From: Verrucomicrobiota bacterium
GTDB lineage: Bacteria; Verrucomicrobiota; Verrucomicrobiia; Limisphaerales; JAKPVM01
Direction: 5' to 3'
Length of the DNA: 46,687 nucleotides
Assembly: GCA_029572555.1 (NCBI GenBank)
Contig: JAKPVM010000245.1
Location: forward strand, 1 to 46,687
Of this stretch, positions 774-46,456 are shown piece by piece (the stretch's first letter is position 1; the number at the start of each line of letters is the position of its first letter). The notes beneath the pieces are model-generated. The model made no database searches. It had not been told where the DNA came from and was given only the letters and a program-made list of their open reading frames with translations. The translations under genes and the position numbers were made by a program.

Positions 774-1484
774 TTACCCAGCTTTCGCTACAGCGATTAG
801 GCTTTGACCAAATGGTGGACGCACAAAGTTATATTCCCAAGAATGCATTACTGGCAAAATATATTTATCAAAAGTTTTAACCGCGGTTGGATTAAAAGTC
901 CGTGTTTTAAACATCTTAAAAATTAGGAACCAGCTGAAATACCCAATAAAATTAAAATAATGCATCTTTACAATGTTAAAACCAGATTGATTTAATTTAC
1001 TTATTAACTCCTTGCGATTATATCTGCGATAATGACCAAAAAGCGCATCAATATCAGAATAAAGTTCTTTTCTTGCAGGCACAAACAGACACAAATTGCC
1101 ACCATTATTTTCGAGCAATTGATTGTAATATTTCAACTCATCCAAATCATCTTTAATATGTTCAAGGACATTTACACAAACAATCGCGTCCCATTGCGAG
1201 TTCAAATTAACTGATTTGATTGTTCCTCTAATTGACTCAATGTCTGGCAAAGTCTGTTTAATCTTTTTGACAAATGGTTCGTGCGGTTCAATTGTGAGAA
1301 TTCTTTTAGCATCATTTATTGTTTTTAACAACTCTGTAAATTGTCCAATGCCAGCGCCAACCTCAATAATTTCTCCTTTTAAATATGGCAAAAACTCTTT
1401 CAAAATAGCCGACCTATAATTGTTAGCATACTGCAAGTCCTCAAATTCGTAATTTTTTATAGTATTTGAATTAGATGATTCCAT
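774..1484 (-). CDS. Class I SAM-dependent methyltransferase
   Basis: This 236-residue protein is a small soluble methyltransferase of the class I Rossmann type. The SAM-binding motif I is visible as IIEVGAGIGQF (about residues 38-48), and the post-motif region WDAIVCVNVLEHIKDD (about 118-133) matches the Methyltransf_11/23 style VLEHI signature. There is no signal peptide. It starts two bases after the stop of the upstream glycosyltransferase gene, so the two are almost certainly co-transcribed and probably act on the same glycan or lipid-linked substrate. The target cannot be read from sequence. A hairpin with a T tract follows downstream. Confidence in the fold is high; function beyond a methyl transfer in surface polysaccharide chemistry is inference. 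Confidence 0.85.
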   Translation of the reverse strand: MESSNSNTIKNYEFEDLQYANNYRSAILKEFLPYLKGEIIEVGAGIGQFTELLKTINDAKRILTIEPHEPFVKKIKQTLPDIESIRGTIKSVNLNSQWDAIVCVNVLEHIKDDLDELKYYNQLLENNGGNLCLFVPARKELYSDIDALFGHYRRYNRKELISKLNQSGFNIVKMHYFNFIGYFSWFLIFKMFKTRTFNPTAVKTFDKYILPVMHSWEYNFVRPPFGQSLIAVAKAG

Positions 1485-1486
1485 TT

Positions 1487-2227
1487 CTATTTAAAGAAAT
1501 TGTATTTTAATATGCATAAGAACGCATAAACACCGTCTTTCCACCCAATTTTCTTACCTTCGTCATAAGTGCGTCCATAATAAGAAATTGGGACCTCATA
1601 AATTCTCAAATTTAATTTGCTTACTTTTGCTGTTATTTCGGGTTCAAATCCAAATCTATTTTCTTCAATTTTTATTTTGTCTAATACTTCTTTTCTGAAC
1701 AGTTTATAGCATGTCTCCATATCTGTCAGGTTCAGGTTTGTAGCCATATTTGACAGCATTGTCAGAAAATGATTACCAAGCGAATGCCAATAATACAAAA
1801 CGCGGTGAGTGCCAAAACCAAGAAATCGCGAACCATAAACCACATCAGCCTTATTCATTAAAACTGGTTTTAATAGCATATAATATTCAGTCGGGTCATA
1901 CTCAAGGTCTGCATCCTGAATTATCACATAAGGCGCAGAAACATTCATAAAACCAGTTCTTAACGCAGCGCCCTTACCTTGATTATAATCAAGTTTGAAC
2001 AACTTAATGCGCAAATCTTTTTCTGCTTTCTGGCATACAATTTCATAAGTTTTATCATTAGAACCGTCGTCCACTACGATAACTTCCATCACTGGGTGCT
2101 GTTCAAGAATCACATCTAAAATTGCAGCGATAGTGTTCTCTTCATTGTAAACAGGGACAACAACCGCAAGACACGGCGGTATATCTACGTTTGAGTTTAT
2201 AGTAATGGGACTACTGCTACTGTTCAT
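1487..2227 (-). CDS. Family 2 glycosyltransferase, dolichyl-phosphate mannose synthase-like
   Basis: A 246-residue GT-A fold glycosyltransferase of family 2. It shows the N-terminal nucleotide-sugar-binding segment VVVPVYNEENTI (about residues 21-32), VVDDGSNDKT, GKGAALRTG, the metal-binding DADLEYDP (DXD-like, about 105-112) and the later GSRFLG and CYKLFR elements seen in DPM1/DPG-synthase-like enzymes. There is no C-terminal membrane pair, so it would be a soluble or peripherally bound enzyme moving a sugar from a nucleotide donor to a polyprenyl phosphate or glycan. The gene is first in a two-gene unit with the methyltransferase at 774. Upstream AAAGG lies rather far (13 nt) from the ATG, with a TATGAT hexamer only 3 nt before the start. 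Confidence 0.9.
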   Translation of the reverse strand: MNSSSSPITINSNVDIPPCLAVVVPVYNEENTIAAILDVILEQHPVMEVIVVDDGSNDKTYEIVCQKAEKDLRIKLFKLDYNQGKGAALRTGFMNVSAPYVIIQDADLEYDPTEYYMLLKPVLMNKADVVYGSRFLGFGTHRVLYYWHSLGNHFLTMLSNMATNLNLTDMETCYKLFRKEVLDKIKIEENRFGFEPEITAKVSKLNLRIYEVPISYYGRTYDEGKKIGWKDGVYAFLCILKYNFFK

Positions 2228-10350: not shown

Positions 10351-10824
10351 ATGATTGATAAATATGAGGAAATAATAGATGGAGAGCGATATATTCGGCT
10401 TGCACCGGGTGATATTCACGAGGCTATCTGCACGGGATTATATAAACACATTATAGATTGTATGCCTTCGTCTTCACCGGTTAAAATTTTGCCGATTCGT
10501 TCTCCTATAACATTCAGTAACAATTCCGTCATTCGTCCCGACATTGCATTGATTACATTAATTGGAGCAAAAGTCTGGCTTGCAATAGAGATCATTGATT
10601 CATCTGACCATAAAACTGATACAGTAATTAAAAAGAATTTTTATGAAGAAATCAAATTGCCCCGTCTATGGGTTGTAGATCCAAGATTTGAAAATGTAGA
10701 AATATATTGTCAAACTCCTTATGGAATGACACTAAATCATATTTATGCAGGGAAAGAATTATTAACAGATATCTCTTTGCCCGGATTTGCATTGCAAACT
10801 TATAAAATTTTTGAAGGGAAATAA
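10351..10824 (+). CDS. Uma2-family (DUF820) PD-(D/E)XK nuclease-like protein
   Basis: A 157-residue protein of the Uma2/DUF820 family, a restriction-endonuclease-like fold that is abundant in cyanobacteria and other environmental bacteria. Visible marks are RPDIALI (about residues 67-73, catalytic Asp), WLAIEIIDSSD (Glu) and the downstream KTDTVIKKNFYEEIKLPRLWVVDP. Activity in this family is largely inferred from the fold and no substrate or partner is established. It follows uvrA by 32 bases on the same strand and ends 5 bases before the convergent PilX-like gene. TAAAAT lies 5 nt before the ATG. Confidence 0.8.
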   Translation: MIDKYEEIIDGERYIRLAPGDIHEAICTGLYKHIIDCMPSSSPVKILPIRSPITFSNNSVIRPDIALITLIGAKVWLAIEIIDSSDHKTDTVIKKNFYEEIKLPRLWVVDPRFENVEIYCQTPYGMTLNHIYAGKELLTDISLPGFALQTYKIFEGK

Positions 10825-10829
10825 CAGTA

Positions 10830-12866
10830 TTATATACCAAGCTTATAGAATCCCAGAACTGAAATTACCGTATTATCAAAAGGTATCTCATTCCAACTAT
10901 TAACTAAATAACGAATCTTGGGACCCATACGACCAAGGTTTTCATCGTAATGAAAATTAAAATGTCCATTCATCGTAACATTGTTTGAAACTATTGCGCC
11001 AACAAAATCCTCTGCATTATTTCCCCCACCGCGTAAGACCAACGATGCATTAGGCGCATATAAAACACCTGTAAATTGACCGTTTCCTGATATATCTATA
11101 GATGTATTTGAATCCAGTCCATAATATTGAAAATTCAGCGCATTACCATTCTTATTAACCACACCATTGCCTGCAATTTTTGTGTTTGCCCCAGCCATAT
11201 AAAGTTTAAGACTTCCATTGGGACCTATAACAATTCCACCTTGACCAGTAAATTGAATGCTGTTTCTAACAAGAAGGCAAGCATCACCTCTGACATAAAC
11301 TGAACCACTCAAGTTATCTACAACATAATTATAGCTATCAAGGACATAATCATACCTTGTGGAAGTTGTTACAATATTAGTACTTGTCGGTTGCATAAAA
11401 GTATATGAGATAGCACTTTTGTATGTGTAACTTGGCATACTGTATGAATAAGTCTCCGAAAGATAACTATACACTTTAACTGTATATGAATAGGATTGTA
11501 TCGCATTATAATATCGAAACCATGCCTTTTGAGAATTCACATAATCATAAGTAAAACCACCGACATAAGTGCCCGGCAGAGGAAGAAATCCATAATCACT
11601 ATCATTAGAAGGAGGGGTCCCATTTTTTGAAGGCATTGGGCTCAAAATACATTTAACCGATGCACTTGTATCATTAGTAGTAATTGAGCCATAAACATCA
11701 ACATTGGTTGGATAGTAAACTGTGTTCGTGTCTATATAACTTATTGTTATAAAAGGTCTATGTCCGGGGTATGAATAAGAAGTTATCATAGTTGTGTTTG
11801 TTGTTATAGGTCCCGGAGGAAGCGGGTCAGGAAAATCGGTTGTTATAATGGTAACCAAATTCGTCGTAACCCCATCTGGAGGAGGTACAATCGGATAATT
11901 AGTTGTTGTTACAATTCCAAAATTCGTTACTATACCAGTTATTGAAGGGTCTGTTGGATATTCAGTAGTGGTAACAGTTGCATATTGATATTGAAAGTTA
12001 GTCTCTGTAACAGTACCTCCAGATGGTGTATAACCGCCCGAAAAAGGAACCTCTATAGATGGAAAACTCATATTCATATCATCGGAAAAATGACCGGATT
12101 CTATTCCAGAATTACCGTTATAAAACCAGGCAAGGCTTCCTACGATCCCATTTGGACCTATAGAAACTGATCCGCCGGGTCCGGTTGCAACATAACCAAG
12201 TATATTTGCATTGCCAGCATTAAACATATTGGGTTCGCCAGAATTTGTTGCAACATCCCCGTTGTCCTTCCTTTTTCGTGAATTATACCGTCCAAGCACA
12301 CTAAAATTTGGGTCAGCTGAATCGAAACTGTCCGACATCACATTATTGCCATTAAAGTCTATGCTACCTTTTGCGACCATTCCTTTGACAAATAATGCCC
12401 CACCTGAGACCAAAACTTTAACTGAACGTCTAATTTCGTATCTCTTCGGACCCCAATAAGGCCAGATATCAGCGAAAATTGTGCCAGTAGTCGAACCATA
12501 AAAAATCGGCATCGGAATAAAACCGGCACTTTCTATAATCGGTTGAGTTTTAGGATAAATTATTACCACGTATCTCCCCTCTCCAATTATCCTTCTTTTA
12601 ACGGCATAACCTAATTCATAAGACCAACCATCAGAAAATAGATTTGTTAAGCCATTTTTATTTAAGTGAGCAAGCGCTTCCTCGATTCCTGCTTCAATAA
12701 TCGGCATTGTAGCATTCCAGCATTGAGACCTTATTACAGAACGATTTTGAGCGCTCACAAGAGTCAAATAGCTGGCAAGAGTAAAACCAATTATTCCGGC
12801 TATTATTATTGTGATTGCCAGAATACTGCCTTGTTCACGTTTTCTATTGAAAAAATTGATTTTCAT
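10830..12866 (-). CDS. PilX-like pilus-assembly protein with Tyr/Thr repeat region
   Basis: A 678-residue protein with an N-terminal hydrophobic helix preceded by a short basic stretch (KREQGSILAITIIIAGIIGF), similar to PilX_N proteins; it lacks the +5 Glu of true pilins. The middle (about 293-365) holds three near-perfect 21-residue tandem repeats of the form (V)TTT.YP..P...G..TN, followed by a Tyr/Ser-rich tract (about 450-510). The C-terminal 150 residues (IVIGPNGSLKLYM, QFTGVLYAPNASLVLRGGG, NGHFNFHYDENLGRMGP) match the DUF7305-type beta-helix end domain seen on PilX-like proteins. It starts 4 bases after the PilW-like gene and is last in the operon. It is probably a minor tip or surface subunit; the role is inferred. 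Confidence 0.7.
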   Translation of the reverse strand: MKINFFNRKREQGSILAITIIIAGIIGFTLASYLTLVSAQNRSVIRSQCWNATMPIIEAGIEEALAHLNKNGLTNLFSDGWSYELGYAVKRRIIGEGRYVVIIYPKTQPIIESAGFIPMPIFYGSTTGTIFADIWPYWGPKRYEIRRSVKVLVSGGALFVKGMVAKGSIDFNGNNVMSDSFDSADPNFSVLGRYNSRKRKDNGDVATNSGEPNMFNAGNANILGYVATGPGGSVSIGPNGIVGSLAWFYNGNSGIESGHFSDDMNMSFPSIEVPFSGGYTPSGGTVTETNFQYQYATVTTTEYPTDPSITGIVTNFGIVTTTNYPIVPPPDGVTTNLVTIITTDFPDPLPPGPITTNTTMITSYSYPGHRPFITISYIDTNTVYYPTNVDVYGSITTNDTSASVKCILSPMPSKNGTPPSNDSDYGFLPLPGTYVGGFTYDYVNSQKAWFRYYNAIQSYSYTVKVYSYLSETYSYSMPSYTYKSAISYTFMQPTSTNIVTTSTRYDYVLDSYNYVVDNLSGSVYVRGDACLLVRNSIQFTGQGGIVIGPNGSLKLYMAGANTKIAGNGVVNKNGNALNFQYYGLDSNTSIDISGNGQFTGVLYAPNASLVLRGGGNNAEDFVGAIVSNNVTMNGHFNFHYDENLGRMGPKIRYLVNSWNEIPFDNTVISVLGFYKLGI

Positions 12867-12870
12867 AATA

Positions 12871-13413
12871 TTAATCCTGTTGTTTTCTTATGACAATTCT
12901 TGCTGTTTGAATACTTTCAGTATTGATTAAGCCGTTTAAAACCCTTCTTGAACAAACCCAACTCACATCAATTGCTTTGCAATTAACGGCGTTCGTCGTA
13001 GGCACCAGGTCGTAACTACCGGGTATCGGATTACGTTGGTAAGTTTTGAAAATTAACTCATCGCATCCAGTTAACAAAAGGTTCGTTACGCCTTCTTTTA
13101 CTCTGTAAAAAATCCTTTTGTTTGGCTCATAAATAAACATCAATGTCTTTTTGTCTGAATCCTCTAAAACAAGAGTTGTACTTGTGAAACTATCCAAAAA
13201 ATTAACCTGACGAAGATCGCGCGTCAAAACATCAAGCGCATTTCTACTGTTATTATCAAGCTCAGCATAATTTCCTAACGAAGCAAAACTGCGTCCGGTA
13301 TATAAAGATAGAGAAGCAATTGCGACAAACACAATCGACCCCACTCCGATTGTTACAAGGAGTTCCGGAAGTGTAAATCCACAAATAAAGAAATTCTTAA
13401 TTTTAAGGTTCAT
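12871..13413 (-). CDS. Prepilin-type PilW-like minor pseudopilin
   Basis: A 180-residue protein with a class III signal: the cleavage site G12/F13 in CGFTLPELLVTIGV, Glu at +5, then a hydrophobic helix to about residue 33. The following NNSRNALDVLTRDLRQVNFL is the PilW/PulJ-like pattern seen in minor pilins and pseudopilins. PilD-type peptidase would cleave and N-methylate it before assembly into a type IV pilus or type II secretion pseudopilus in the inner membrane. It lies 33 bases after the PilV-like gene and 4 before the PilX-like gene, the usual V-W-X order. Confidence 0.85.
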   Translation of the reverse strand: MNLKIKNFFICGFTLPELLVTIGVGSIVFVAIASLSLYTGRSFASLGNYAELDNNSRNALDVLTRDLRQVNFLDSFTSTTLVLEDSDKKTLMFIYEPNKRIFYRVKEGVTNLLLTGCDELIFKTYQRNPIPGSYDLVPTTNAVNCKAIDVSWVCSRRVLNGLINTESIQTARIVIRKQQD

Positions 13414-13446
13414 AATCCATAACTCAACTTATTAAACATTACAATT

Positions 13447-13911
13447 TTAAAATATGTAATTTTGCATACCATCTTTTGCGACCATAGTTTGCATTTCTCG
13501 TGTTCTTACGATTGAACCGTTGGTCCAGACCAACATTATTTTAATAAGACGTAAATCATCGTTGTAACTCATTCCAGTATTAGCACCGGTTATTGTCAGT
13601 GTCCCATAATAAGGAATCCCCTGTTTATTCGCCAAACCTTTGGGATAGTAATATTCAACAAACGAAGTCGGCAAATTAGTTTCACTTGTTATTTGTTCCC
13701 AACTACAAAGACGGACTGTTTCCATCCGCTCCACAATGATTTGAGTTGCTCTTAAATTCTCGCGTGCAAGTTGAATTACAGCAACGCCACCCGATATTCC
13801 CGCGTATAATGAAACGAATACTATCCCCACCAAGCCTATCCCCACCATAGCTTCAACTAATGAGAATCCTTTTTGTTTAATTCTATTTCTGTTTTTTCTA
13901 TCTATTTTCAT
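13447..13911 (-). CDS. Prepilin-type PilV-like minor pseudopilin
   Basis: A 154-residue protein with prepilin leader RIKQKG ending at G15, mature start FSLVEAMVGIGLVGIVFVSLYAG with Glu at +5. The segment LARENLRATQIIVERMETVRL matches the PilV/PulI pattern of minor pilins. It is processed by prepilin peptidase and acts in the periplasm and inner membrane as part of a pilus or pseudopilus tip. It is the first of three prepilin-type genes, 65 bases downstream of the YfhO-like gene on the same strand. Confidence 0.85.
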   Translation of the reverse strand: MKIDRKNRNRIKQKGFSLVEAMVGIGLVGIVFVSLYAGISGGVAVIQLARENLRATQIIVERMETVRLCSWEQITSETNLPTSFVEYYYPKGLANKQGIPYYGTLTITGANTGMSYNDDLRLIKIMLVWTNGSIVRTREMQTMVAKDGMQNYIF

Positions 13912-13976
13912 AATAGAATTTCCAAGATTTGATAAAGCAACTAGCTTGCCAATTTAAATGTAAATTTTTCTTCAAT

Positions 13977-16238
13977 TTAACTTGTTTTTTGGAAAAATAC
14001 AAATCTTTTCTTTTTTGAAACTTTCAAAATTTTAAATAACGAAACGACAATACACAGGGAAATTACAATACCAGAGATAAAGTTTATGTCGAAATAATAT
14101 ATTTCTACATTGTGCCTACCCTTTGGAATTGACAACGCCTGAAATCCATAATTTGCTTTTAAAATCCGAGTTTTTCCTCCATCTATCTTCGCTCTCCAGC
14201 AAGGATAGTATGCTTGCGATATCGTTACCATAGCAGTATTATCAGAAAATGTTCTAAAAGAAATCTTATGTGTATTTATCTCAATTGAGTCGACATTTGG
14301 TTCATTATTCTTAATTTCACCAATCAAATCCTTATAAGAATCTTGAATAAAAACAACTTCGTTGGGATTGAATGCTGGTGAAAAAACGCCATTCCATATC
14401 TCTACTTCAGACGCAAAAATTACATTTTGACCGACGTTGACTAAACCAAGTGGGGATGTTCGTTCCATCCATTCATATTGACGATTGGTATTCACCGTCC
14501 ATCTTATTGACAAAAAATCCGCCAGACCAGTCGGTATCGAAATCCCATCTTCATAAATTTTGGAAACTATTGCGGCTGTGGAATAAATATGGATAGAAAA
14601 CATTCCGCTTACTTTAGAGATTCCTTCAATTAAATTTAAATTCGAAAACAAACCGACTCTTTTTGAAAGCATTTCCATTACAGCATCACCAGTAAAAGAA
14701 CTGCTTTTATAATCTTTGTCGTGGTAAGTAAGAATTCTCCCATTAGAAAAGCCGCTTGGTCTATCTTCTTTTAAAAGTTTTTTTTCAAACACCCAGTTTT
14801 CAACTGTTGGATTCTGGCGCGGAGAATGTGTTTTCACATCAAAGAAAATAATAAAAAACAATAGTAACCCATTAATCAACAACAACTTAACAAAATGTTT
14901 GTATCCAGCCACCATTAAAACAAAGATAAACAGAAACAAACATCTCACGATGGAATTCTCAAAAATGTATTTTTTTTGTAGAAATGATATTCCGGAAACA
15001 GACAATTCTCTAAAGGTAAAAAACAAAATCAATATAACTAGTCCCGCAGCCGAAGCAAAAGAGATAATGCGTTTTAATTTTGAATATTTTGCATTAGTTT
15101 TTATCATTTCTGCAAATCCAATTGAGGCAAGTAATGGAATTAAAAATACGGGTATAATAATAAATTTAATAGGAAATCTGATAGTAGAAATTACACGAAA
15201 CATCTTCATAATCAATGGATAAAAAAAGGTGTTTTCACCCATTGATAAAACCAAACCTATTATACATAGGAATAATAAAATAAAGTTAAGAAATCTTCGT
15301 TTATAAATAAATGCAACAATGGCTAACCATATTACGCCAACATTGATATAGATTGATGATGTCCAGAACTGTTCTTTTTGAAAAAATACGCCGTATTTCC
15401 ACTGAAATGTATTTATCATTGGCGCGATAATATTAATCGGTGATGAAAGTGCCCATGAACTATCCCCAGCAATTGCATAACGATGCGAGTTTAAAAACAA
15501 CTGGTAAAATGAAAGTAATTGGGGAAGAGATATTAAAATAGTTCCAATAAATACAATTATAACAGACGAGCAGATTTTATAAATATTGAGTTTGTTTTCT
15601 ATCATTTCGGAAAGCATTATTGCCAGAACAATAAGCCATGTTATCCCAATAATTTCTGGCGCCCCAGTAAGAATTTGTATAGTGCATAAAACAATTGCAA
15701 ATACAAGCGATTTCAAAGAAAAGGATTTTAACATAAAATGGACACCAGCAATTACCCATGGCATCCAACCTAAAGCGGCGATATTATTGGTCCACATTAA
15801 ACTATTTAGCGTTACTCCATTGAACTGATAAGCAACTCCTGCAATTGTAGCGGCAATGCTGTTTTTGGTAATTCGATAAGCAAGTACATACATCCCAATG
15901 GCGCCAAAAATTAAGTGTAAGAGGTTAAATACGCCGACACTCCATTGTGGTGGTAATAATATGTAGAAGAAATTCCCCGGATAAAGAACCATTGTATTCC
16001 ACTGCGCAAGGAAAGGAATTCCAAATTCATTTAAAGGATTCCATAATGGTAATTCACCGTTTAAAAAGCAGTCTTTTACATAAACTGCATTGGGATAAGA
16101 GAATATTCCAAAATCTCTAAAAAAAAAGGTGAATCCGCCAAAAACCACTTCAGGGTATTCAGCAATCAACAATGAAGATGCCAAAAACGTAAAAAAATTG
16201 AAGGAAACTGTTTTATTATCAAAGCCTTCTAAATGCAT
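13977..16238 (-). CDS. YfhO-like polytopic membrane protein
   Basis: A 753-residue integral membrane protein with about a dozen hydrophobic segments up to about residue 460 and a soluble C-terminal part ending in one more helix. The early RDFGIFSYPNAVYVKD..FLNGELPLWNPLNEFGIPF and MVLYPGNFFYILLP pattern is that of bacterial YfhO (GT-C-like) proteins. In Gram-positives YfhO is linked to glycosylation of surface polymers such as lipoteichoic acid; a lipid-linked sugar transferase role is inferred here. It starts 6 bases after the modular secreted protein gene and precedes the PilV-like gene, so it probably belongs to the same transcript and might modify the pilin-like or secreted proteins encoded with it. 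Confidence 0.75.
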   Translation of the reverse strand: MHLEGFDNKTVSFNFFTFLASSLLIAEYPEVVFGGFTFFFRDFGIFSYPNAVYVKDCFLNGELPLWNPLNEFGIPFLAQWNTMVLYPGNFFYILLPPQWSVGVFNLLHLIFGAIGMYVLAYRITKNSIAATIAGVAYQFNGVTLNSLMWTNNIAALGWMPWVIAGVHFMLKSFSLKSLVFAIVLCTIQILTGAPEIIGITWLIVLAIMLSEMIENKLNIYKICSSVIIVFIGTILISLPQLLSFYQLFLNSHRYAIAGDSSWALSSPINIIAPMINTFQWKYGVFFQKEQFWTSSIYINVGVIWLAIVAFIYKRRFLNFILLFLCIIGLVLSMGENTFFYPLIMKMFRVISTIRFPIKFIIIPVFLIPLLASIGFAEMIKTNAKYSKLKRIISFASAAGLVILILFFTFRELSVSGISFLQKKYIFENSIVRCLFLFIFVLMVAGYKHFVKLLLINGLLLFFIIFFDVKTHSPRQNPTVENWVFEKKLLKEDRPSGFSNGRILTYHDKDYKSSSFTGDAVMEMLSKRVGLFSNLNLIEGISKVSGMFSIHIYSTAAIVSKIYEDGISIPTGLADFLSIRWTVNTNRQYEWMERTSPLGLVNVGQNVIFASEVEIWNGVFSPAFNPNEVVFIQDSYKDLIGEIKNNEPNVDSIEINTHKISFRTFSDNTAMVTISQAYYPCWRAKIDGGKTRILKANYGFQALSIPKGRHNVEIYYFDINFISGIVISLCIVVSLFKILKVSKKKRFVFFQKTS

Positions 16239-16244
16239 TTCATA

Positions 16245-18599
16245 TTAATATGGATATTCAACCACTCTATAAAAACGACGGCCAAAATTACTTGCGTCCG
16301 AATCAGTAAATTCAATTATCGTACCGGATGCAGTTACATTCGTTAGAGGGAACCATAGAAATAAATCATCTGAAACTTGAACTTCGTAATAATGTCCAAC
16401 CAATCCGTTAGCGGTAAAAGTAAAAGTCCCATTTTGATTAATCCGGTTTGATAAAATTTTTGATGGTGTTGTTAATACTATTTTTAATTGAATTCTTCCT
16501 GTCATAGCTTGGAAACCATCAACTGCAATCTGATAAGTAATATTAGAAGAAGTATAAAATGTAACAGCGCTTGTAAATTCACCTCCTCCGGGGTCTATAT
16601 CATTATTACTAACAATTGGTATTAAGTTTGTAACAGATGTGCCAGTATAAACCGCGAGAGTAGTATCAAAATCGCTACCAATTGTAGAAATAGTGGCAAA
16701 ACCGGAAAATGGTGGTCGCCAACTCCACCACACCGAAGCGCCACCACTATCACCTGCGTGCTCTGGTTCTCCCGTTTCTTTTGTGGCATTTTGATTTGAA
16801 CCGGTAATATCAATTAAATCACCAGAAACTAAAATCTGATTTGAAAAATTATCATTATCCGGTGAGACAACTTGCACGATAGATAAAACAATATTTCCAT
16901 TATCAACGCTATCGTAATAATCGCCAAACATTAATCCATCCACAGCAATATGATATGTTATCCCTTTAATTGCATCAAATGAAAGTGTACTTGTTATGCC
17001 ACCAAAGACAGGGTCGTCATTATTTGATGCAATAGTTACAAGAGATGTTACTGAATTTCCGGTATAAACAGCCAATAGCGTATCAAAGTCGCTGTCTGAG
17101 GTTGAAATTTGCACAGGTCCGGTTTGAGGAGCCGTCCACTCCCACCAAACTGATTTGCCATTATTCAATCCAGCGTGTTTTGGTTCATCATCCTCAGAAC
17201 TTGCATGCATATTATCTCCTGTCACAGTTATTTTATCAATTGAAGGTAAAATAGTTCGATTTGTAAACATATCATTCGCTGGTCCTTGATTAAAACTCAC
17301 ATTGACAACAACTTTGCCATATCCATCGGTTTCATTACCCATTACCTGTATTTTGTATGCCCTTCCTGGAACAACCCCAAGAACGCAAACATCTAAAAAT
17401 GGGTATTGTTCAGGTGCATTGTTATCGCCCCATGTAATCAGTTTAATATCCGTTCCAGGAGGAGTAAAAATTGTTTTCTCTCCCTGATAGACAGCAAGTA
17501 AAGTATCAAAATCGCTACCAATAGTATCCACAGTTAATTCACCGTTTGTTGGCGCCATCCATTCCCACCAAACTGATTTACCATTTGGCAACTGTGGTTC
17601 GGGGACAACTGGGATTAAATAGTAAGTAACCTCGCCTGGCTCAGCATTTGCTCGCCCATTTGCGCTTATATCACTGGCGTTTGTGGTATTTGTCAGTCTT
17701 ATCCTGTTAGTATATCGGTTATTATCAGGAAAAATGCTGAGAATTACTTTCCCAGCCCAATTTATTTCGCTATCCTGATAACCATCCACCACTATGTAAT
17801 AGGTAATGTTCGTTTTTGCATTTATGGATACAAGACTTGTCAGGTCAAATGGAGAACCACTGTCATCATCTCTCATTGCAGTGGCATAAGGAGGTACTTC
17901 ATTAAAATTCGTATATACTCCAAGAACAGTATTAAACGAACTGCCAATTGTAGAAATAAGAAAATCACCATCTCGCGGTGGATTCCATTTCCACCAGATA
18001 GTTTTTCCGGTTGCGCTAATTCCAATCGTTACAGTTTCTCCGGTCTCTACATCTGCTTGGCCATTAAATCCAACTGTCTGAGGTCTTTCTCCTGAAAGCG
18101 GTATCGCATTTTCAAACATATTGTTATCAGGCATAATTCGTAAAACAATATTACCACTTACCGCATTTGATCCGCTGCCCTTACCGTAGACTGCAATATA
18201 GTATGTTGTATTCGACATTGCGCTAAATGATATTAAACTTGCGTAAGACGTAAGAAAATCCGGAGTTACCCCATTATCGTCTTCTGTAATCTTTAAAATC
18301 GCACCACTATATCCTGGTATATATAGGACGAGTATAGTATCAAAATCACTGTCTTCGGTGCAGAATAAAAATCTGCCACTATAAGGTGCCTTCCATTCCC
18401 ACCAAACTGATTTACCACAGGGAACTGATACCTTGTTTGATTCTATATTCTCAATTGTAGCGCCAACATTTGAACCTGTCGTGTAAATATAGTTTGTAGA
18501 AGGCAAAACAATGCGATTTGTGAAATTATCATTGGCTGGGGCAGATGCATATATGTTGGCAACAACAATGCAATATAATAATAACATCAACTTCTTCAT
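16245..18599 (-). CDS. Secreted protein with five NDNF..GKSVWWEW modules
   Basis: A 784-residue protein with a signal peptide (MKKLMLLLYCIVVANIYASA). Five modules of about 115-145 residues follow, each starting PANDNFTN or PDNN..N, passing through GKSVWWEW.AP or a close variant, then SDFDTLLAVY and ending in a ITYHIAVDG strand. The modules start near residues 22, 156, 293, 443 and 583. The last 80 residues (YYEVQVSDDLFLWFPL ... RRFYRVVEYPY) match a C-terminal domain common on Verrucomicrobia exported proteins. No catalytic signature is seen, so it is likely adhesive or structural, or a carbohydrate-contacting beta-sandwich array. It is first in the five-gene operon with YfhO and the prepilins. 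Confidence 0.75.
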   Translation of the reverse strand: MKKLMLLLYCIVVANIYASAPANDNFTNRIVLPSTNYIYTTGSNVGATIENIESNKVSVPCGKSVWWEWKAPYSGRFLFCTEDSDFDTILVLYIPGYSGAILKITEDDNGVTPDFLTSYASLISFSAMSNTTYYIAVYGKGSGSNAVSGNIVLRIMPDNNMFENAIPLSGERPQTVGFNGQADVETGETVTIGISATGKTIWWKWNPPRDGDFLISTIGSSFNTVLGVYTNFNEVPPYATAMRDDDSGSPFDLTSLVSINAKTNITYYIVVDGYQDSEINWAGKVILSIFPDNNRYTNRIRLTNTTNASDISANGRANAEPGEVTYYLIPVVPEPQLPNGKSVWWEWMAPTNGELTVDTIGSDFDTLLAVYQGEKTIFTPPGTDIKLITWGDNNAPEQYPFLDVCVLGVVPGRAYKIQVMGNETDGYGKVVVNVSFNQGPANDMFTNRTILPSIDKITVTGDNMHASSEDDEPKHAGLNNGKSVWWEWTAPQTGPVQISTSDSDFDTLLAVYTGNSVTSLVTIASNNDDPVFGGITSTLSFDAIKGITYHIAVDGLMFGDYYDSVDNGNIVLSIVQVVSPDNDNFSNQILVSGDLIDITGSNQNATKETGEPEHAGDSGGASVWWSWRPPFSGFATISTIGSDFDTTLAVYTGTSVTNLIPIVSNNDIDPGGGEFTSAVTFYTSSNITYQIAVDGFQAMTGRIQLKIVLTTPSKILSNRINQNGTFTFTANGLVGHYYEVQVSDDLFLWFPLTNVTASGTIIEFTDSDASNFGRRFYRVVEYPY

Positions 18600-18725: not shown

Positions 18726-19145
18726 ATGGAATATAATCAAAATAGTTCACCAGTGGTTGTAAAATTGCAGGAACTTTGCAAAGCTCTTGTAGATGACCCG
18801 CAGTTTGCTTCAATTAGAGATCGTGTTTCTTTATTCCTCTCGGATGAGGAAACACGAAGGCAGTATGAAAACCTGAACAACAAAGGGATGATGCTTCACG
18901 GAAAACAACAGAGTGGAGTTGAACTTACTGAAGAAGAGATAAATGATTTTGAAAAAGATAGGGACACGCTTTTAAATAACCCTATTGCAATGGGCTTTAT
19001 CGAAGCTCAGCAAGAGATGAGTGAGATTAAAAACCTCGTAAATCAGCATATATCCAGAACATTTGAACTTGGAAGAATACCCACCGTAGAAGATTTTATG
19101 GGGTGTGATTCTGGTTGTGGCTCTGGTTGTTCCTGTGGTCAATAA
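18726..19145 (+). CDS. YlbF/YmcA-family protein with Cys-rich tail
   Basis: A 139-residue mostly helical protein. The core (about residues 8-120: VKLQELCKALVDDPQF, SDEETRRQYENLN, LNNPIAMGFIEAQQEM) matches the Com_YlbF family. In Bacillus the YlbF-YmcA-YaaT complex regulates RNase Y and competence and carries iron-sulfur clusters. Here a short linker is followed by CDSGCGSGCSCGQ, five or so cysteines at the very end, suited to binding metal or a cluster. It is monocistronic and followed by a strong intrinsic terminator. TATACT directly abuts the ATG, and there is no Shine-Dalgarno. Confidence 0.8.
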   Translation: MEYNQNSSPVVVKLQELCKALVDDPQFASIRDRVSLFLSDEETRRQYENLNNKGMMLHGKQQSGVELTEEEINDFEKDRDTLLNNPIAMGFIEAQQEMSEIKNLVNQHISRTFELGRIPTVEDFMGCDSGCGSGCSCGQ

Positions 19146-25109: not shown

Positions 25110-28100
25110 TTATTTTTGCCTTACTAATATTTTTACCGGACCAAAAAGCCCCGATTCCATCAATGGCGAATCCTCTGTAAACTTGCGAATATTGGTTTTA
25201 GTAATTCGCCTTTCTTCTGGAAGATTTAAGTCGCCGATAATTCTATTTGGCCAGAAATTTATTACAATGATTTCAATTTTATTTTCACCGGGCTTTAACA
25301 TACCGGTTATATTTAATCTAAACGGTGGCGACCAGGTTATTCCTGCCGATTTATCATTCACTCTGACTTCCGCAAGTTCCCTTAAATAACCAAGATCGAT
25401 AAAATATGCATCATCTTTTGAAACCATTCGTTCCGGGATGACGACTTTTTTATTATAACTAGCCGAGCCTGAATAATATTTTATCCCCGGGTCTGTATGT
25501 TTTGTCCAACTTGACAATTCATCAAAAGAGACCTCATCAGGCGCGCCCATATTATTATCAAATTTAACAATAAAGGGTGGATTAATTTCAAACACAGTCT
25601 TAAATTCATAAGAATTATCAACCCTTCTGGGAGGATTTTTTGAGGCTGATTCTCTAAACAAAATGAAATAGGAACCATAAGGCGAAAATTCAATAGGCAT
25701 TAACGTTTTACTATCCAATACCTTATAAGCTGTAGCAAATTGTCTCTCGCCAGTAACAGGATTCCACAATTCTGGCGCCTTGCCAGACACCCTGAATGCG
25801 CAGTTTATTTTTCGCCACTGGTTCGTCCTATTTGCGACAAAATATATCTCCATTTCTCTGTCGCGTCTATGAATAAAGTCAAATTCAGACAAAAATTCTT
25901 TTTCAATGATTTCGAAATCAGGGGAAATATTTAGGAATTCGAGAACTTCGCAAGTTGATTTGTTGAAAACCACTTTGCCATTGGCGGGTTTTTGTTCGCC
26001 TGTCAGCCCCTCTTTTCCCCATAATTCATCGGATATTTTTCTAACTTCAATATCGCATTGTGGATAATTGCTCAATCCTGTTGCCATTTTCGGCTTCTTT
26101 CCAATAACAATTGCGCCATCTTTAACGAGTCGTTGAATTTTGCGTAAGACATTCAGGGATATAGATTCTCTATCCGGTAAAACAAGAACTGAATAATTCA
26201 TTCCATCCGGCAGTGTTAATCTCCCATTTTTAACGGCAAGCCTGTCTATTATTGCATCAGCAGTTATGACATCATAATCGTAGCCGGGCAAAATATCTGC
26301 AGGGTCAGAAGCCTTTAACTGGACAAAATTAGGGACGTGGTCCCCATAATAATAGCATACATCAGCCACAAACAATCCTTGTTGCAACATCCATTGGCAA
26401 CGATCAATGTATAATAAAAATGCATCAGACCAATTCCACCAGGTGCTGTTTGGGTTGAAATGTGTTCCAGCAAAATATTGTATACCCGGCAGACCAAATT
26501 CCTCCGGAGAACATACAAATGCATGCCAGACAAGGAAATTCATACCTTCACAAAGCGCTTTATCAAAAGAAGGTTTTAAATTATCCCATATTGTTTCCTG
26601 CCAGTGAGGTCCAATTGTAGTAAAGCCTTCAGCCGCCACAAATTTGCGTCCGTAAGTATGAGCAGCAGAAGCCGGCTGCTTGCAAAAAAAACGGTTGGCA
26701 TCACCGATTCTGTGTCTCCATGACCAAGCCCAGAACTCGCTCATAGGGATGTCATTATACCCAAGACATTGTTGAGCATCTATTGGAACGGCGTGTGGAC
26801 CGCCTGATTCAGGATGAATCAGCAAATTATGCTTATGCGCAAATTCTTTGAATAATTTGTAATGATTATCAATGGCAAGGTCTCCAAGAGTCCTACGAAA
26901 ATCGTGTAAAAACCGATTGCTAATCTCTCTGTTTTGAACAATTCTTCCCGCAAGCACTGGAAGATATGGCAACATATCGTAGCCTCTACGTTTTTTAAAT
27001 TCTTCCATTAGGGTTGGCGTCCAGTTTATAGCCTCAATTTCCCAGCTATCTGTGTGTAAATATTTTAATGTTTTGCCAGCATACTCTCCTGCATCAGAAA
27101 TCAAAGGTTTAACCACAGCATTCCAGTACATTATAAATGCGCCTGAATCCAGAACATCAATTGCGTAACCCTTCCAATTATCACTACAAGTAGAAACCCT
27201 TGCATTATTGCCAATCGTGCAACCGAATCTCAATACCTGCCAATTTCCTTCGGGGACATCCCATTTGAGTACGCCATTTGCATCGAGGTTTTTTGTCAAA
27301 TCCACAACGGACGATATTTTCGTATCTTCTTCACCTTCTTCGGGCGGATAATCAATCAATAACGGCGTAGTGTCTGGTGCAGAAAAATGCAACGTTTTAT
27401 ACATTGCCTTTTCCTGCCAGTTCATTATTGGCTTTTTTCGACGAGAACGAACAAGATTATTCCCTTTATCATCAAACAGATTTATTTCTGAAATTTGAAC
27501 ATTGCGGGGATTTACAGGATACTTTGGATCATAAGCAGAGGTAATTAAAATTCTAATGGATTTACAACTTATGAATGGGTCAAAATTATGCTCAAATTTG
27601 TTGTCATCAATAGTAAATTTGCCACAACTTTCAAACTCAGTTCCATTCTTTGAAGCGCTAATTTCTAAGCTGCGAGGACCATAACCAGGTCGTCCTATAA
27701 TAGAAATCTTTTTCAATTTACAAATATCTTTAAAATCGAACTCTACATACTCCGGTTTATCCGGCTTTGGCCCCTCACTCGCTTTCTCTCCATAAGATAC
27801 CCAGAATGTATTTGTATTATTGTCAATTAGGTTTGATGGAGGATAATTTTTTTGAAAAGAACTTACCTTTGTTTCAAACAAATCGACTTCGGTTGTTTTC
27901 AATGGATAAGCAACAACGAATAAATCGCGATAAAAATTATCGCGATGTATTGGAATTGGTAACACGACCTCACATTTTCCAGAGCCTTTCACCACTGTTT
28001 CAGACCAGACGAGTTTTTTTGCGGCGTCATCAGGGGTTACCATAGGTCCACCAAGGTTCCACCCACTCTGAATGTTTAATCCAATCTCAAGCCCAAGCCT

Positions 28101-28454
28101 GTTTGCTTCCGTCAGGGTATGCCTAAACATATTACGCCATTGTGGACTGAAAAATTCAACTCCCTGTTTAACTGGCGCATTTCCATCTTGTTCAGCACCG
28201 CCAGCATCACAAATTAATGCACCGCCAAAACCCTTTTTCTTCATTTCTTCGAGGTCGCGAGTAATAGCCTTCTTTGTTACATTGCCATTCAGCCACCACC
28301 AGTAAGCGCGTAGTCGGGCTTCGTTTGGCGGGTTCTCCCATCCTTTTTCAAGATTTGAATTTGCGTAAATATTCAGATTAGCAAAAATCGAAAGGATAAT
28401 TATCCACAGTAAAAAAGATGTCAGATTTAACTTTTTCATTTTTATTACATTCAT
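25110..28454 (-). CDS. GH106-like alpha-L-rhamnosidase, secreted
   Basis: A large 1114-residue secreted glycosidase. After a signal peptide (MKKLNLTSFLLWIIILSIFANLNIYA) the opening WENPPNEARLRAYWWWLNGNVTKKAITRDLEEMKKKGFGGALICDAGG is the typical start of GH106 alpha-L-rhamnosidases, followed by a TIM barrel with DSWEIEAINWTP, RRGYDMLPYLP, ESGGPHAVPIDAQQCLGYNDIPMSEFWAWSW, and C-terminal beta-sandwich domains including a galactose-binding-like one (YFIDLGYLRELAEVRVND). It probably removes rhamnose from pectin or other plant glycans in the periplasm or outside. The ATG at 28439 would give the cleaner signal peptide; 28454 fits the nearby TATACT box. It is divergent from GH39 with 25 bp between. 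Confidence 0.8.
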   Translation of the reverse strand: MNVIKMKKLNLTSFLLWIIILSIFANLNIYANSNLEKGWENPPNEARLRAYWWWLNGNVTKKAITRDLEEMKKKGFGGALICDAGGAEQDGNAPVKQGVEFFSPQWRNMFRHTLTEANRLGLEIGLNIQSGWNLGGPMVTPDDAAKKLVWSETVVKGSGKCEVVLPIPIHRDNFYRDLFVVAYPLKTTEVDLFETKVSSFQKNYPPSNLIDNNTNTFWVSYGEKASEGPKPDKPEYVEFDFKDICKLKKISIIGRPGYGPRSLEISASKNGTEFESCGKFTIDDNKFEHNFDPFISCKSIRILITSAYDPKYPVNPRNVQISEINLFDDKGNNLVRSRRKKPIMNWQEKAMYKTLHFSAPDTTPLLIDYPPEEGEEDTKISSVVDLTKNLDANGVLKWDVPEGNWQVLRFGCTIGNNARVSTCSDNWKGYAIDVLDSGAFIMYWNAVVKPLISDAGEYAGKTLKYLHTDSWEIEAINWTPTLMEEFKKRRGYDMLPYLPVLAGRIVQNREISNRFLHDFRRTLGDLAIDNHYKLFKEFAHKHNLLIHPESGGPHAVPIDAQQCLGYNDIPMSEFWAWSWRHRIGDANRFFCKQPASAAHTYGRKFVAAEGFTTIGPHWQETIWDNLKPSFDKALCEGMNFLVWHAFVCSPEEFGLPGIQYFAGTHFNPNSTWWNWSDAFLLYIDRCQWMLQQGLFVADVCYYYGDHVPNFVQLKASDPADILPGYDYDVITADAIIDRLAVKNGRLTLPDGMNYSVLVLPDRESISLNVLRKIQRLVKDGAIVIGKKPKMATGLSNYPQCDIEVRKISDELWGKEGLTGEQKPANGKVVFNKSTCEVLEFLNISPDFEIIEKEFLSEFDFIHRRDREMEIYFVANRTNQWRKINCAFRVSGKAPELWNPVTGERQFATAYKVLDSKTLMPIEFSPYGSYFILFRESASKNPPRRVDNSYEFKTVFEINPPFIVKFDNNMGAPDEVSFDELSSWTKHTDPGIKYYSGSASYNKKVVIPERMVSKDDAYFIDLGYLRELAEVRVNDKSAGITWSPPFRLNITGMLKPGENKIEIIVINFWPNRIIGDLNLPEERRITKTNIRKFTEDSPLMESGLFGPVKILVRQK

Positions 28455-28479: not shown

Positions 28480-29910
28480 ATGAACTCATTAAAAAATATT
28501 TTTGTTCTACTGATTTGTGTTTGTTTCTTAATTCACAAAGCCTATTCGCAAGAGAACCTTGCACTAATTGATTGTTCTCGAACAATAGGGACAATAAAAG
28601 GATTGCACGGGGTAAATCTTGGTCCGTTGTGTTATCGTGGGACAATTGATTTATCTTCTTACCATAAAGAATTGAAAGTTCCCTATACCCGTCTTCACGA
28701 TGTTGTATGGATAAATGCAGATGCCGTGGATATTAGCACAATATTCAGGGATTTTCGCGACGACCCTGAAAATGCAGAAAATTATGACTTCAAGACAACT
28801 GATGATTATATTCAAGCAATTGTCAATGTGGGGTCGAAAATTGTGTACCGTCTTGGTGAAAGCATCGAACATACGCCCCGAAAATACCGCGTTCATCCAC
28901 CGCAAGATTATGAAAAATGGGCAAAGATATGTCTTGGCATAATTCGGCATTACAATCAGGGGTGGGCAAACGGTTTTCATCATAATATCCAATACTGGGA
29001 AATCTGGAATGAACCGGATGTTAAGCCCTCAATGTGGACGGGGACGGATAATCAATATTTTGAGTTATATAAGGTTACAGCACAATTAATTAAAAAACAG
29101 TTCCCTGATTTAAAAGTCGGAGGACCTGCCGTTGGCAATCCTGTCGTATTTGAAGGCGGTAGTTCTAAACCATCTGACTTTGCATATAAATTTCTTGATT
29201 ATTGCAAAGAAAATAAGGTCCCATTGGATTTTTTTTCGTGGCATTGTTATACAGATAATCCATCAGTTATTGTCAGAAAGGCAAAGGCAGTCCGTTCAAT
29301 CCTTAATGAATATGGATTTCAATCAACAGAAAGCCATCTAAACGAATGGAATTATCTTCCGAATAATGACTGGCGTCCAATGTTAAAAAATGGTCAGGGA
29401 ATTATGAGGGAGAAATGGTATGAAAAAATGGGTGGGACAGCAGGATCGTCATTTCTTGTTTCGGTATTATCGCTTCTTCAAGACTCACAAGTTGATGTAG
29501 CAAACTTTTATACAGGCGAAATTCAAGGATTCGGTTTATTCAACTACTATGGCGCGCCAAAGAAAAATTACTATGGTATGAAGGCGTTTTCTCTTATGCT
29601 TGGAACACCGACAAGAATTCAAGCCACATTGCCAATTCCACAATCTACAATACTTGCAGGTGTTAATGAGAACAGAGACAGGGTCAATGTCTTGATAGCG
29701 CTTAACAGTAAGACCAAACAGCAACTAAAAATACAGATTAATAATATTTTCTGGAATCAACAAACCGATTGCAACATATTAGCGGTTAACTCCGATAAAA
29801 ACCTTGAACCAATCTCTAATACTTTATTGCAGCCACCGAATAATTTAATTAAAATCACCTGTGAACCACCCACTGTCTTGCTTCTTGAATTGCAGCCCGC
29901 AAAAAAATAA
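28480..29910 (+). CDS. GH39-like secreted glycosidase
   Basis: A 476-residue protein with a signal peptide (to about AYSQ, residue 24) and a GH-A clan TIM barrel. The acid/base Glu is E178 in EIWNEPD and the nucleophile candidate E289 in SHLNEWNY, a layout that fits family 39 (beta-xylosidase, alpha-L-iduronidase and, in newer subfamilies, alpha-L-arabinosidase activities). GLHGVNLGPL and YTRLHDV at the N-terminus also agree. The C-terminal 80 residues form the usual small beta sandwich. It is divergent from the GH106-like gene and leads, after 62 bases, to the LOG-M16-pab-hyp gene run, though it may have its own transcript. The exact substrate cannot be read from sequence. Confidence 0.8.
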   Translation: MNSLKNIFVLLICVCFLIHKAYSQENLALIDCSRTIGTIKGLHGVNLGPLCYRGTIDLSSYHKELKVPYTRLHDVVWINADAVDISTIFRDFRDDPENAENYDFKTTDDYIQAIVNVGSKIVYRLGESIEHTPRKYRVHPPQDYEKWAKICLGIIRHYNQGWANGFHHNIQYWEIWNEPDVKPSMWTGTDNQYFELYKVTAQLIKKQFPDLKVGGPAVGNPVVFEGGSSKPSDFAYKFLDYCKENKVPLDFFSWHCYTDNPSVIVRKAKAVRSILNEYGFQSTESHLNEWNYLPNNDWRPMLKNGQGIMREKWYEKMGGTAGSSFLVSVLSLLQDSQVDVANFYTGEIQGFGLFNYYGAPKKNYYGMKAFSLMLGTPTRIQATLPIPQSTILAGVNENRDRVNVLIALNSKTKQQLKIQINNIFWNQQTDCNILAVNSDKNLEPISNTLLQPPNNLIKITCEPPTVLLLELQPAKK

Positions 29911-43972: not shown

Positions 43973-46354
43973 CTATTCTTCTGCTTCTATTACCTTCCAT
44001 TCATGTGCACCGGTAGCCCACGAATTTTGCATTTGAACAACAAGCCGTAAAGCCTTTGTCTTTACAGGTGTAAACCGCACCTCACACCATTGGTCTTTTT
44101 TGACTGGATATGTTGTTGTGTTATTGACGGGTTTCCACTCTCCATTTTCCAGATAAAGAATCTTCCACGATTGTGGCAGTCTGCATTCTCCTCTGCCTGT
44201 ATCATCAAACCAATAAACCTTGCATCCTTCTACATTAATTGGTTCTTTCCAGTCATATTGCACCCATTCTTCTGTGCCCTTATGAGGCCACCAATGGCAC
44301 ATATATCGTGGTTGCTCACCCGATTTAGACGGTTCAATCCCGTCATTTATACCTCGAGGTTGACTGTTATCATTTGCAAAACTTACAGAAACTTTTGCCA
44401 ATGCCTCCACACCTTTGACAGCGGGAACTGGCGCCATCGTTGGAGTCCAGACAGTCATTTCACCCGCCTTTCTATTATCCCAACTATAATATGGAATAGC
44501 CGTCAGTTTTACCTTTTCGGGCTTATCAATTGATTGATACAAGACATTGCGCCAATCCATTTCAGGAAGCCTTTGCGCCTCTCCTTTAATTACAGTAATT
44601 CCTCCAAGAAGTAACGGCTGTTTCTCTACCGTAAATTCCGAGTTCAATGGCAAAAATATTGATTTTATTGGTACGTCATAGTCGCAGGCTTCGATACAAT
44701 AAACCAGTGGTCCTCTCTGGATTGCAACAAGACCATTATCAGCCTTTACTTTAGGATTGGCTATTACTTTCTTCACTGGCATAGCAAGGTCAAGTTCAAC
44801 CTTATCCGTAGAACGCCATTCTCTTTCAATCACAAAATAACCTCGTTCAATTTTGGGTTGCGCAACCTTCTTATTGTTGATGTAAACAACCGAATCATCA
44901 CACCAACCCGGTTTTCGTAAATATAAGGTGAATTTAGTGGCTTTATCTACGATTGGTACCAATGAAACTTTACCATCCCACGGATAATCAGTTGTAACTT
45001 TTAAGCCGACATTTCCCGATGAAATCTTCGTTTGAACCTTGCCCTGAATATAAAGATTAACATACAGGGCGTTATCGCCTGCTGCATAAGCATACTCACC
45101 AAGCGATGCTAATGTTCGGGCAACATTAGGCGGACAACACGCACAACCAAACCACGGTGAACGATGGTGGTTGCCTTCGCTTGCAAGTGGATTTACATAG
45201 AAAAACCTTGTCCCATCAAGCGACACGCCTGCCAGAACCCCGTTATACAAAGAACGTTCATATACATCCGCATATCTTGCATCTCCATAAAGTAAGGCAA
45301 GCCTGTGATTCCATTGGGCAAGTGCAACTGATGCGCAAGTCTCTTGATATGCGGTCAAGTTCGGTAAATCATAATCTTCGGTAAATCCTTCATTATGAGC
45401 CGATGGCCCTATGCCACCGGTAATATACATATTTCTTGTAACCGTATTTCGCCAAACCCTATTAATCATTTTCAATAAAGGCTCATCTCCCAACTCGCCA
45501 CCAACATCAGTAGCCCCTGACATTAAATACGCTGCACGAACCGCATGTCCCTTAATATTCCTATGCTCAAAGATTGGGACATCATCCTGCCAGTAAGAAC
45601 CATCATACCTTTCAATTGGTATTTTATGTTCTTCGGCAAAATATTTTTTACCACGATTTAAAATAAAAAACTTTGCAAGGTCAAAATACCGTTTCTCACC
45701 TGTGACCCTATAAAGTTTGACCAGAGCAAGTTCAATTTCAGGATGTCCGGGATAGCCCATTCGTTTGCCCGGACCAAATACCGAATCTATATTGTCAGCA
45801 TATTTAATGGCTACATTTAGCAACTCCCGTTTACCCGTAGCCTGATAATGTGCCACTGCCGCTTCGAACAAATGCCCTGCGCAATACAACTCATGCCAAT
45901 CCCTCAAGTTTGTCCATCGTTTTTCAGGTTCTTTTACAATAAAATAAGTATTAAGATAACCATCAGGTTGTTGAGCCTTTGCAATTATTGAAATTATCTC
46001 ATCTAACCTCTTATCAAGTGCGGGGTCGGGGTGTATAGCAAGAGAGTATGAGACAGCCTCAATCGCCTTATACAAATCCGAGTCCATAAAAACAGGTCCT
46101 TGAAACCCGGTTCTTGCACCGGCGGCTGCAAGTTCAAAATTTTTTATATTACCAGCCTTAACAAGATTTTCCAAATTCACCGGTATTGAGGCAATGCGGT
46201 TTGTTTCCTGACGAGGTTTCCAGAATTTATCAGAAATTTCAACATCAGTAAACGAGACCCTTCTCATCTTTGCCAAAGACGTTTCCTGTGAATAACCTGA
46301 CATTAAGGTAGATGCCAACACCCCGACAGTTAAAAATATAATTTGTTTCTTCAT
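43973..46354 (-). CDS. GH127-like beta-L-arabinofuranosidase with C-terminal carbohydrate-binding-like domain
   Basis: A 793-residue secreted enzyme (signal to about GYSQ). The GH127/DUF1680 zinc site is plain: E340 and C342 in QETCASVALAQ and C407/C408 in GCACCPPNVARTL, matching the Glu-Cys-Cys-Cys set of Bifidobacterium HypBA1, which uses a Cys nucleophile to cleave beta-L-arabinofuranose from hydroxyproline-linked arabinooligosaccharides. YITGGIGPSAHNEGFTEDYDLPN agrees. The last about 140 residues (INDGIEPSKSGEQPR, WVQYDWKEPINVEGCKVYWF) are a discoidin-like galactose-binding module. GH127 also includes rhamnogalacturonan-II enzymes, so the exact linkage is open. ATG 46354 is preferred to the TTG at 46360. 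It heads the GH127-GH43-galM run. Confidence 0.88.
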   Translation of the reverse strand: MKKQIIFLTVGVLASTLMSGYSQETSLAKMRRVSFTDVEISDKFWKPRQETNRIASIPVNLENLVKAGNIKNFELAAAGARTGFQGPVFMDSDLYKAIEAVSYSLAIHPDPALDKRLDEIISIIAKAQQPDGYLNTYFIVKEPEKRWTNLRDWHELYCAGHLFEAAVAHYQATGKRELLNVAIKYADNIDSVFGPGKRMGYPGHPEIELALVKLYRVTGEKRYFDLAKFFILNRGKKYFAEEHKIPIERYDGSYWQDDVPIFEHRNIKGHAVRAAYLMSGATDVGGELGDEPLLKMINRVWRNTVTRNMYITGGIGPSAHNEGFTEDYDLPNLTAYQETCASVALAQWNHRLALLYGDARYADVYERSLYNGVLAGVSLDGTRFFYVNPLASEGNHHRSPWFGCACCPPNVARTLASLGEYAYAAGDNALYVNLYIQGKVQTKISSGNVGLKVTTDYPWDGKVSLVPIVDKATKFTLYLRKPGWCDDSVVYINNKKVAQPKIERGYFVIEREWRSTDKVELDLAMPVKKVIANPKVKADNGLVAIQRGPLVYCIEACDYDVPIKSIFLPLNSEFTVEKQPLLLGGITVIKGEAQRLPEMDWRNVLYQSIDKPEKVKLTAIPYYSWDNRKAGEMTVWTPTMAPVPAVKGVEALAKVSVSFANDNSQPRGINDGIEPSKSGEQPRYMCHWWPHKGTEEWVQYDWKEPINVEGCKVYWFDDTGRGECRLPQSWKILYLENGEWKPVNNTTTYPVKKDQWCEVRFTPVKTKALRLVVQMQNSWATGAHEWKVIEAEE

Positions 46355-46456
46355 TGCCAATTTAATTGATATTTATTGTAATTTAACTTTCTAAAATCTT
46401 TTGAATTTGCAAACAAATCTAATTTCGCATTAATTAACACTAATAACTTATGCTAA

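Follow-up and report, generated by a model that had tools for sequence, protein, structure and literature searches.

A candidate stand-alone minor-pilin tip cassette with a beta-helix module in Limisphaerales

Introduction

In the accepted model of type 4 filaments, assembly starts at a tip complex of minor pilins whose cap subunit lacks the glutamate at position 5 (Glu5) (PMC10191384). In modular pilins, a pilin module is joined to a COOH-terminal binding module, and such proteins are presumed to be located at the tip (PMC8179133). We here describe a region of a 46,687-nucleotide stretch of DNA (referred to as the window) from a Verrucomicrobiota bacterium of the order Limisphaerales (GenBank contig JAKPVM010000245.1), in which genes for PilV-, PilW-, and PilX-like proteins (positions 13911 to 10830, minus strand) probably constitute a minor-pilin tip cassette that stands alone and has an adhesive module built into it, the filament machinery being encoded elsewhere. 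Upstream of these genes lie those for a YfhO-like membrane protein and an exported modular protein, and a preliminary description of the window had joined all five in one operon for a surface fiber or pseudopilus.

The window corresponds to contig C114 in a metagenome-assembled genome (3.34 Mb, 356 contigs, 83% complete). The G+C content is level throughout the five-gene region, so that nothing points to a chimeric junction there. Comparisons at the level of the order were performed with 58 genomes, including that containing the window. In addition, PilX relatives were sought across taxa with query-derived sequence patterns in one genome per species for 85,000 species. The best 80 matches yielded 77 distinct named PilX loci, with as much as 7 kb of flanking DNA covered on either side; the 68 loci for which upstream DNA was present are referred to as testable.

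Results

The complete PilV-PilW-PilX set was found in that order in 66 of the 68 testable loci, with tight spacing between PilV and PilW (median, –11 bp) and between PilW and PilX (median, 5 bp). The records of most of the 77 loci were labeled as Verrucomicrobiota or as Limisphaerales/Pedosphaera, with one being labeled as Omnitrophota and a few only as "bacterium." Within the order, PilX relatives were detected in 34 of the 58 genomes, and an independent profile search gave strong PilV matches in exactly the same 34 (Fisher p = 8e-17). The distances for PilV, PilW, and PilX were correlated (Mantel r of 0.55 to 0.68), with shared species history contributing to this correlation. Given that PilT was present in 58/58 and PilM in 56/58 of the genomes, compared with 34/58 for the cassette, the cassette is accessory, whereas the machinery is nearly universal. 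The mean number of PilM matches was 2.6 in genomes with the cassette and 2.1 in those without it, which revealed no clear copy-number link. Several genomes contain several cassettes, as exemplified by the tandem sets of loci L160, L180, L191, and L196.

The characteristics of the individual proteins supported their designation as PilV-, PilW-, and PilX-like in the preliminary description. PilV (154 amino acids; 13447 to 13911, minus strand) is a GspI-type minor pilin with a class III signal and Glu5 that matched PF07963 above the cut-off, and PilW (180 amino acids; 12871 to 13413, minus strand) is of the GspJ type and matched TIGR02532 above the cut-off; prepilin NH2-terminal motifs were apparent in both. 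PilX (678 amino acids; 10830 to 12866, minus strand) is a modular pilin that lacks Glu5 and contains a beta-helix module with a DUF7305 match. Among the relatives of these proteins, Glu5 was present in 62 of 62 PilW and 54 of 57 PilV members but in none of the 62 PilX members. An AlphaFold model of PilW was obtained with a predicted local distance difference test (pLDDT) score of 91.5, and its best matches in the PDB by Foldseek were XcpW (5bw0, entry 5bw0_G; E = 7.5e-4, probability 1.00), EpsI:EpsJ (3cfi, entry 3cfi_H), and TTHA1219 of Thermus; the model matches the GspJ fold as present in solved GspI-GspJ complexes. Searches of PDB sequences with PilV and PilW profiles gave only weak matches, those to pilins being confined to the NH2-terminal helix, and that with the PilX profile gave none.

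PilV family members matched the GspI, PilV, and ComGE models. The ComGE model was matched by 31 of the 57 PilV proteins and ComGF by some PilW proteins, mainly through the shared NH2-terminal region, as might be expected if a DNA-uptake (competence) pilus had the trio as its tip, with PilX providing a DNA-binding head. These matches were far below the curated cut-offs, however, and the PilX head is akin to an adhesive, ice-binding-like domain rather than to a known DNA receptor. Given also that com genes were not found linked to the trio, we consider a role in competence to be highly improbable.

The trio was also compared with models of the Verru_Chthon cassette, namely TIGR02600 (protein A), TIGR02598 (protein B), and TIGR02599 (protein C); TIGR02596 is presumably the model for protein D. 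PilV of the window scored 19.2 bits against TIGR02598 (cut-off, 51.4) and PilW scored 19.4 bits against TIGR02599 (cut-off, 256.5), PilX showed no match, and protein A was not detected above the cut-off in any of the 58 order-level genomes. Given that the matches were restricted to NH2-terminal regions and far below the cut-offs, we rejected membership of the trio in this cassette. A literature search for the Verru_Chthon cassette retrieved nothing.

The AlphaFold model of PilX (pLDDT of 79) consists of a helix, a pilin sheet, and then a beta-helix in two halves. The long NH2-terminal pilin helix comprises 60 residues (residues 12 to 71; 12654 to 12833, minus strand). The first half of the beta-helix spans residues 158 to 281 (12024 to 12395, minus strand; mean pairwise identity of 0.45, n = 62) and the second half residues 510 to 661 (10884 to 11339, minus strand), with the DUF7305 match at residues 526 to 646. 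The two halves are split by a Thr-, Tyr-, and Ser-rich insertion (residues 282 to 509; 11340 to 12023, minus strand), which was delineated on the basis of insertion lengths and composition. This insertion comprises 228 residues in the window protein and is long in a few relatives, but it is only about 14 residues in most; in the model, it forms long strands with some low-confidence stretches. A recent report proposes a split-domain origin for the ligand-binding domains of adhesins (PMC12077191), a proposal that the PilX insertion fits but does not prove. The DUF7305 match of the window protein had an E value of 4e-19, and the domain was detected in all 62 relatives, 17 of which also matched pAdhesive_15, an ice-binding-like adhesive domain. 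A search of one literature library for DUF7305 found no paper. The best PDB matches of the PilX model, although weak, were to ice-binding proteins such as 4nuh, in keeping with an adhesive module; in a survey of fibrillar adhesins, the same entry matched one adhesive cluster with a collagen-binding protein (PMC9210967). TcpB and CofB were weak structural neighbors of the model.

Alignment of the 62 PilX members revealed the strongly conserved polar motifs DSFDS-DP, KDNGDVATNS, and NFHYDE. These motifs exceed what a plain binding surface would need and might thus indicate that the beta-helix serves as a carbohydrate-active enzyme or as a scaffold and not as an adhesin. Searches of Pfam and NCBIfam, however, revealed no match to any family of lyases or hydrolases, and we regard this possibility as quite improbable.

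The preliminary description correctly stated that no PilA, PilB, or GspD homolog is present in the five-gene span; such genes are located elsewhere in the genome, which encodes six PilB/GspE-type and five PilT-type ATPases as well as five secretins. Contig C283 contains genes for PilM and a PilQ-type secretin, with three small intervening genes, without a Pfam match, located where those for PilN, PilO, and PilP would be expected. Contig C109 encodes PilB, PilT, a second PilB/GspE, and PilC. Contig C99 contains a type II secretion system (T2SS)–type F-H-I-J-K pseudopilin operon whose K protein carries a T2SSK domain.

These findings bear on whether the trio might instead encode the minor pseudopilins of a T2SS, with the PilX module recognizing secreted cargo. 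PilV, PilW, and PilX parallel GspI, GspJ, and GspK in gene order and Glu5 pattern, the fold of PilW is nearest to that of GspJ, and the several GspE/PilB ATPases and five secretins of the genome could support such a system. On the other hand, the genome already has the operon on C99, PilX matches DUF7305 but not T2SSK, and, at the loci examined, the cassette was not linked to a Gsp operon. A T2SS role for the trio therefore appears unlikely, as does, given the separate operon on C99, the notion that it provides the only T2SS pseudopilins of the cell.

In total, 39 N_methyl matches were detected in this incomplete genome. The first protein of a small cluster of pilin genes on a 4.4-kb contig (G000:C58, L121) appears, as judged from its sequence, to be Patescibacteria-like, and this contig is possibly a binning contaminant.

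With regard to the surroundings of the trio in other genomes, a gene for a NarL-type response regulator was located 115 to 373 bp upstream of PilV in L145, L153, L156, L159, L160, L165, L182, and L200, and such a gene was also present near the trio in L090, L091, L099, L102, L104, and L105. A histidine kinase gene precedes the regulator gene in several loci. No NarL-type regulator gene was found beside the window trio. Close to the cassette, L144 (7896 to 9794) and L157 (2814 to 4526) as well as L148, L165, L180, L187, and L202 also encode a large PilX-like protein of another type (about 570 to 630 amino acids, without a Pfam match), which in some loci has its own PilV- and PilW-like genes. 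In the window, a Uma2-type gene (10351 to 10824) on the opposite strand lies directly past the 3' end of PilX.

The two genes upstream of the trio encode an exported PPC-type protein (784 amino acids; 16245 to 18599, minus strand) and a YfhO-like multi-pass membrane protein (753 amino acids; 13977 to 16238, minus strand; 9 or 10 predicted hydrophobic segments). The five open reading frames share the minus strand, with gaps of 6, 65, 33, and 4 bp in order, as originally described. The export and five-module organization proposed for the first protein were borne out by an NH2-terminal hydrophobic stretch and five repeats, the latter centered on WWEW-like motifs at residues 63, 199, 341, 482, and 622; its PF04151 match scored 33.4 bits (cut-off, 25.9). 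The YfhO-like protein matched PF09586 with 40.6 bits (cut-off, 28.5), with the match covering only about 96 residues on the COOH-terminal side (positions 741 to 835 of the 835 in the model). With respect to its earlier designation as a probable GT-C sugar transferase, a protein of this type would have the GT-C fold and a conserved acidic residue in the first outer loop; Asp42 was invariant in 14 relatives, and a profile search of PDB sequences identified no solved relative.

A single functional operon, in which the YfhO-like protein glycosylates the PPC protein or the pilins and the fiber displays the PPC protein, would be in keeping with the shared strand and the gaps of 6 to 65 bp. The presence of the YfhO family was also weakly associated with that of the cassette (21 of 34 genomes with it and 7 of 24 without; p = 0.018, with genome size and completeness uncontrolled). 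However, YfhO and PPC relatives were absent from the covered flanks of all 77 named PilX loci, and in order-level genomes they were located on contigs other than that of the trio or well away from it. Adjacency of PPC and YfhO genes was likewise not seen outside the window, and the two YfhO paralogs in the same genome both lie away from any pilin trio. The PPC-type family is large, with many copies on other contigs, and was found in 54 of the 58 genomes. We therefore rejected the five genes as a conserved unit: at the level of gene linkage, YfhO and PPC are distributed separately from the trio, and, because they are unlinked to PilX in relatives, the five-gene set is a local arrangement of this one genome. 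Glycosylation of the PPC protein by the YfhO-like protein and its display by the fiber were unsupported, and we consider the single-operon explanation very unlikely. The part of the preliminary description that withstood comparison is its pilin component, with the trio being a conserved minor-pilin cassette compatible with a filament tip complex. Promoter scanning was uninformative (37 sites compared with 36 expected), and terminator-like sites (15 compared with 5.3 expected) were mostly intragenic and therefore unusable for splitting transcripts.

The PPC protein (COOH-terminal region, 16245 to 16460) and its relatives in L126 and L128 end in a short conserved RFYRV-type tail, which could be a COOH-terminal sorting signal. 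A YlbF-like gene (18726 to 19145) and the PPC gene are divergently oriented. The left end of the window (774 to 2227) contains genes for a methyltransferase and a family 2 glycosyltransferase; in L111 and L113, relatives of the latter adjoin YfhO-like genes, a hint that the two might share a surface-glycan pathway. The window also encodes glycoside hydrolases, namely a GH106 alpha-L-rhamnosidase (25110 to 28454), a GH39 protein (28480 to 29910), and a GH127 beta-L-arabinofuranosidase (43973 to 46360), which would be consistent with the use of plant or algal polysaccharides.

Discussion

The gene order and linkage of PilV, PilW, and PilX, their phyletic coupling, the Glu5 pattern, the fold of PilW, the layout of PilX, and the location of machinery genes elsewhere in the genome point to a minor-pilin tip cassette. 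We propose that each of the three prepilins is processed at its class III signal and that together they assemble into an I-J-K–type priming complex, in which PilV and PilW would prime the filament. Given that it lacks Glu5, PilX would cap this complex and would, on assembly, be placed at the tip. Type IV pilus machinery, whose genes lie in other parts of the genome, would then extrude this tip. The DUF7305-containing, ice-binding-like beta-helix of PilX, together with the Thr/Tyr-rich insertion that splits it, would then be exposed as an adhesin. PilY1 is the usual tip adhesin of type IV pili, and the PilX head may perhaps play the role that PilY1 has in other bacteria. We assign a probability of roughly 0.6 to this explanation as a whole, including the view that the YfhO and PPC genes are chance or lineage-specific neighbors.

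Several observations weigh against this explanation. The predicted template modeling score of the PilX model was 0.62, and its PDB matches to ice-binding proteins were weak (Foldseek E = 0.055, probability 0.44). The identity of the beta-helix among PilX members (0.44 to 0.45) was at least as high as that of the pilin part (0.32 to 0.42), unlike that expected for a rapidly changing adhesin; such conservation suggests that the ligand is conserved or that the module might have an enzymatic function. The cassette contains no GspH/FimU partner, and it is missing from 24 of the 58 genomes although the machinery genes are nearly universal, so that it is not essential to the machine. Finally, PilY1 was not detected above the cut-off in any of the 58 order-level genomes, but 14 control genomes were also silent, and this negative result is therefore weak.

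More tentatively, and with considerable doubt, we suggest that Limisphaerales might lack PilY1 and, in its place, fit their type IV pilus machines with interchangeable PilV-PilW-PilX tip cassettes. A genome would often contain several such cassettes, some of them located behind dedicated NarL-type two-component regulators, and each would end with a capping pilin that has a beta-helix adhesin built in. Verrucomicrobiota contain a very large number of pilin-like genes, most of which are unexplained, and the cassette provides a concrete hypothesis for some of them. An order-wide tip cassette would be a possible answer to how surface attachment is achieved without a detectable PilY1, and DUF7305 would gain a testable function.

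Comparison with known systems

The cassette most closely recalls the GspI-GspJ-GspK and PilI-PilJ-PilK (PilVWX) tip complexes, with which it shares the I-J-K gene order, the presence of Glu5 in I and J but not in K, and the resemblance of the PilW model to GspJ of solved complexes. It differs from these complexes in that it has no H subunit, its K protein carries a DUF7305 beta-helix in place of the GspK alpha-domain, and it stands alone and is restricted to 34 of the 58 genomes. The lack of a T2SSK match distinguishes PilX from GspK of T2SSs, including the K protein encoded on C99 of the same genome.

Like the modular pilins PilB and PilC of S. sanguinis as well as CofB and TcpB, PilX combines a pilin helix and sheet with a grafted non-pilin domain. 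Its module, however, is a beta-helix of the ice-binding-like type that is interrupted by a Thr/Tyr-rich insertion, and PilX is conserved, as are its dedicated I and J partners, throughout an order. The Verru_Chthon cassette (proteins A to D) is similar in being a multi-gene prepilin-type cassette of Verrucomicrobiota, but its B and C models match only the NH2-terminal regions of PilV and PilW. Finally, as with the type IVa pilus tip adhesin PilY1/PilC, an adhesive module is proposed to be positioned at the pilus tip, with the difference that PilX is itself a pilin.

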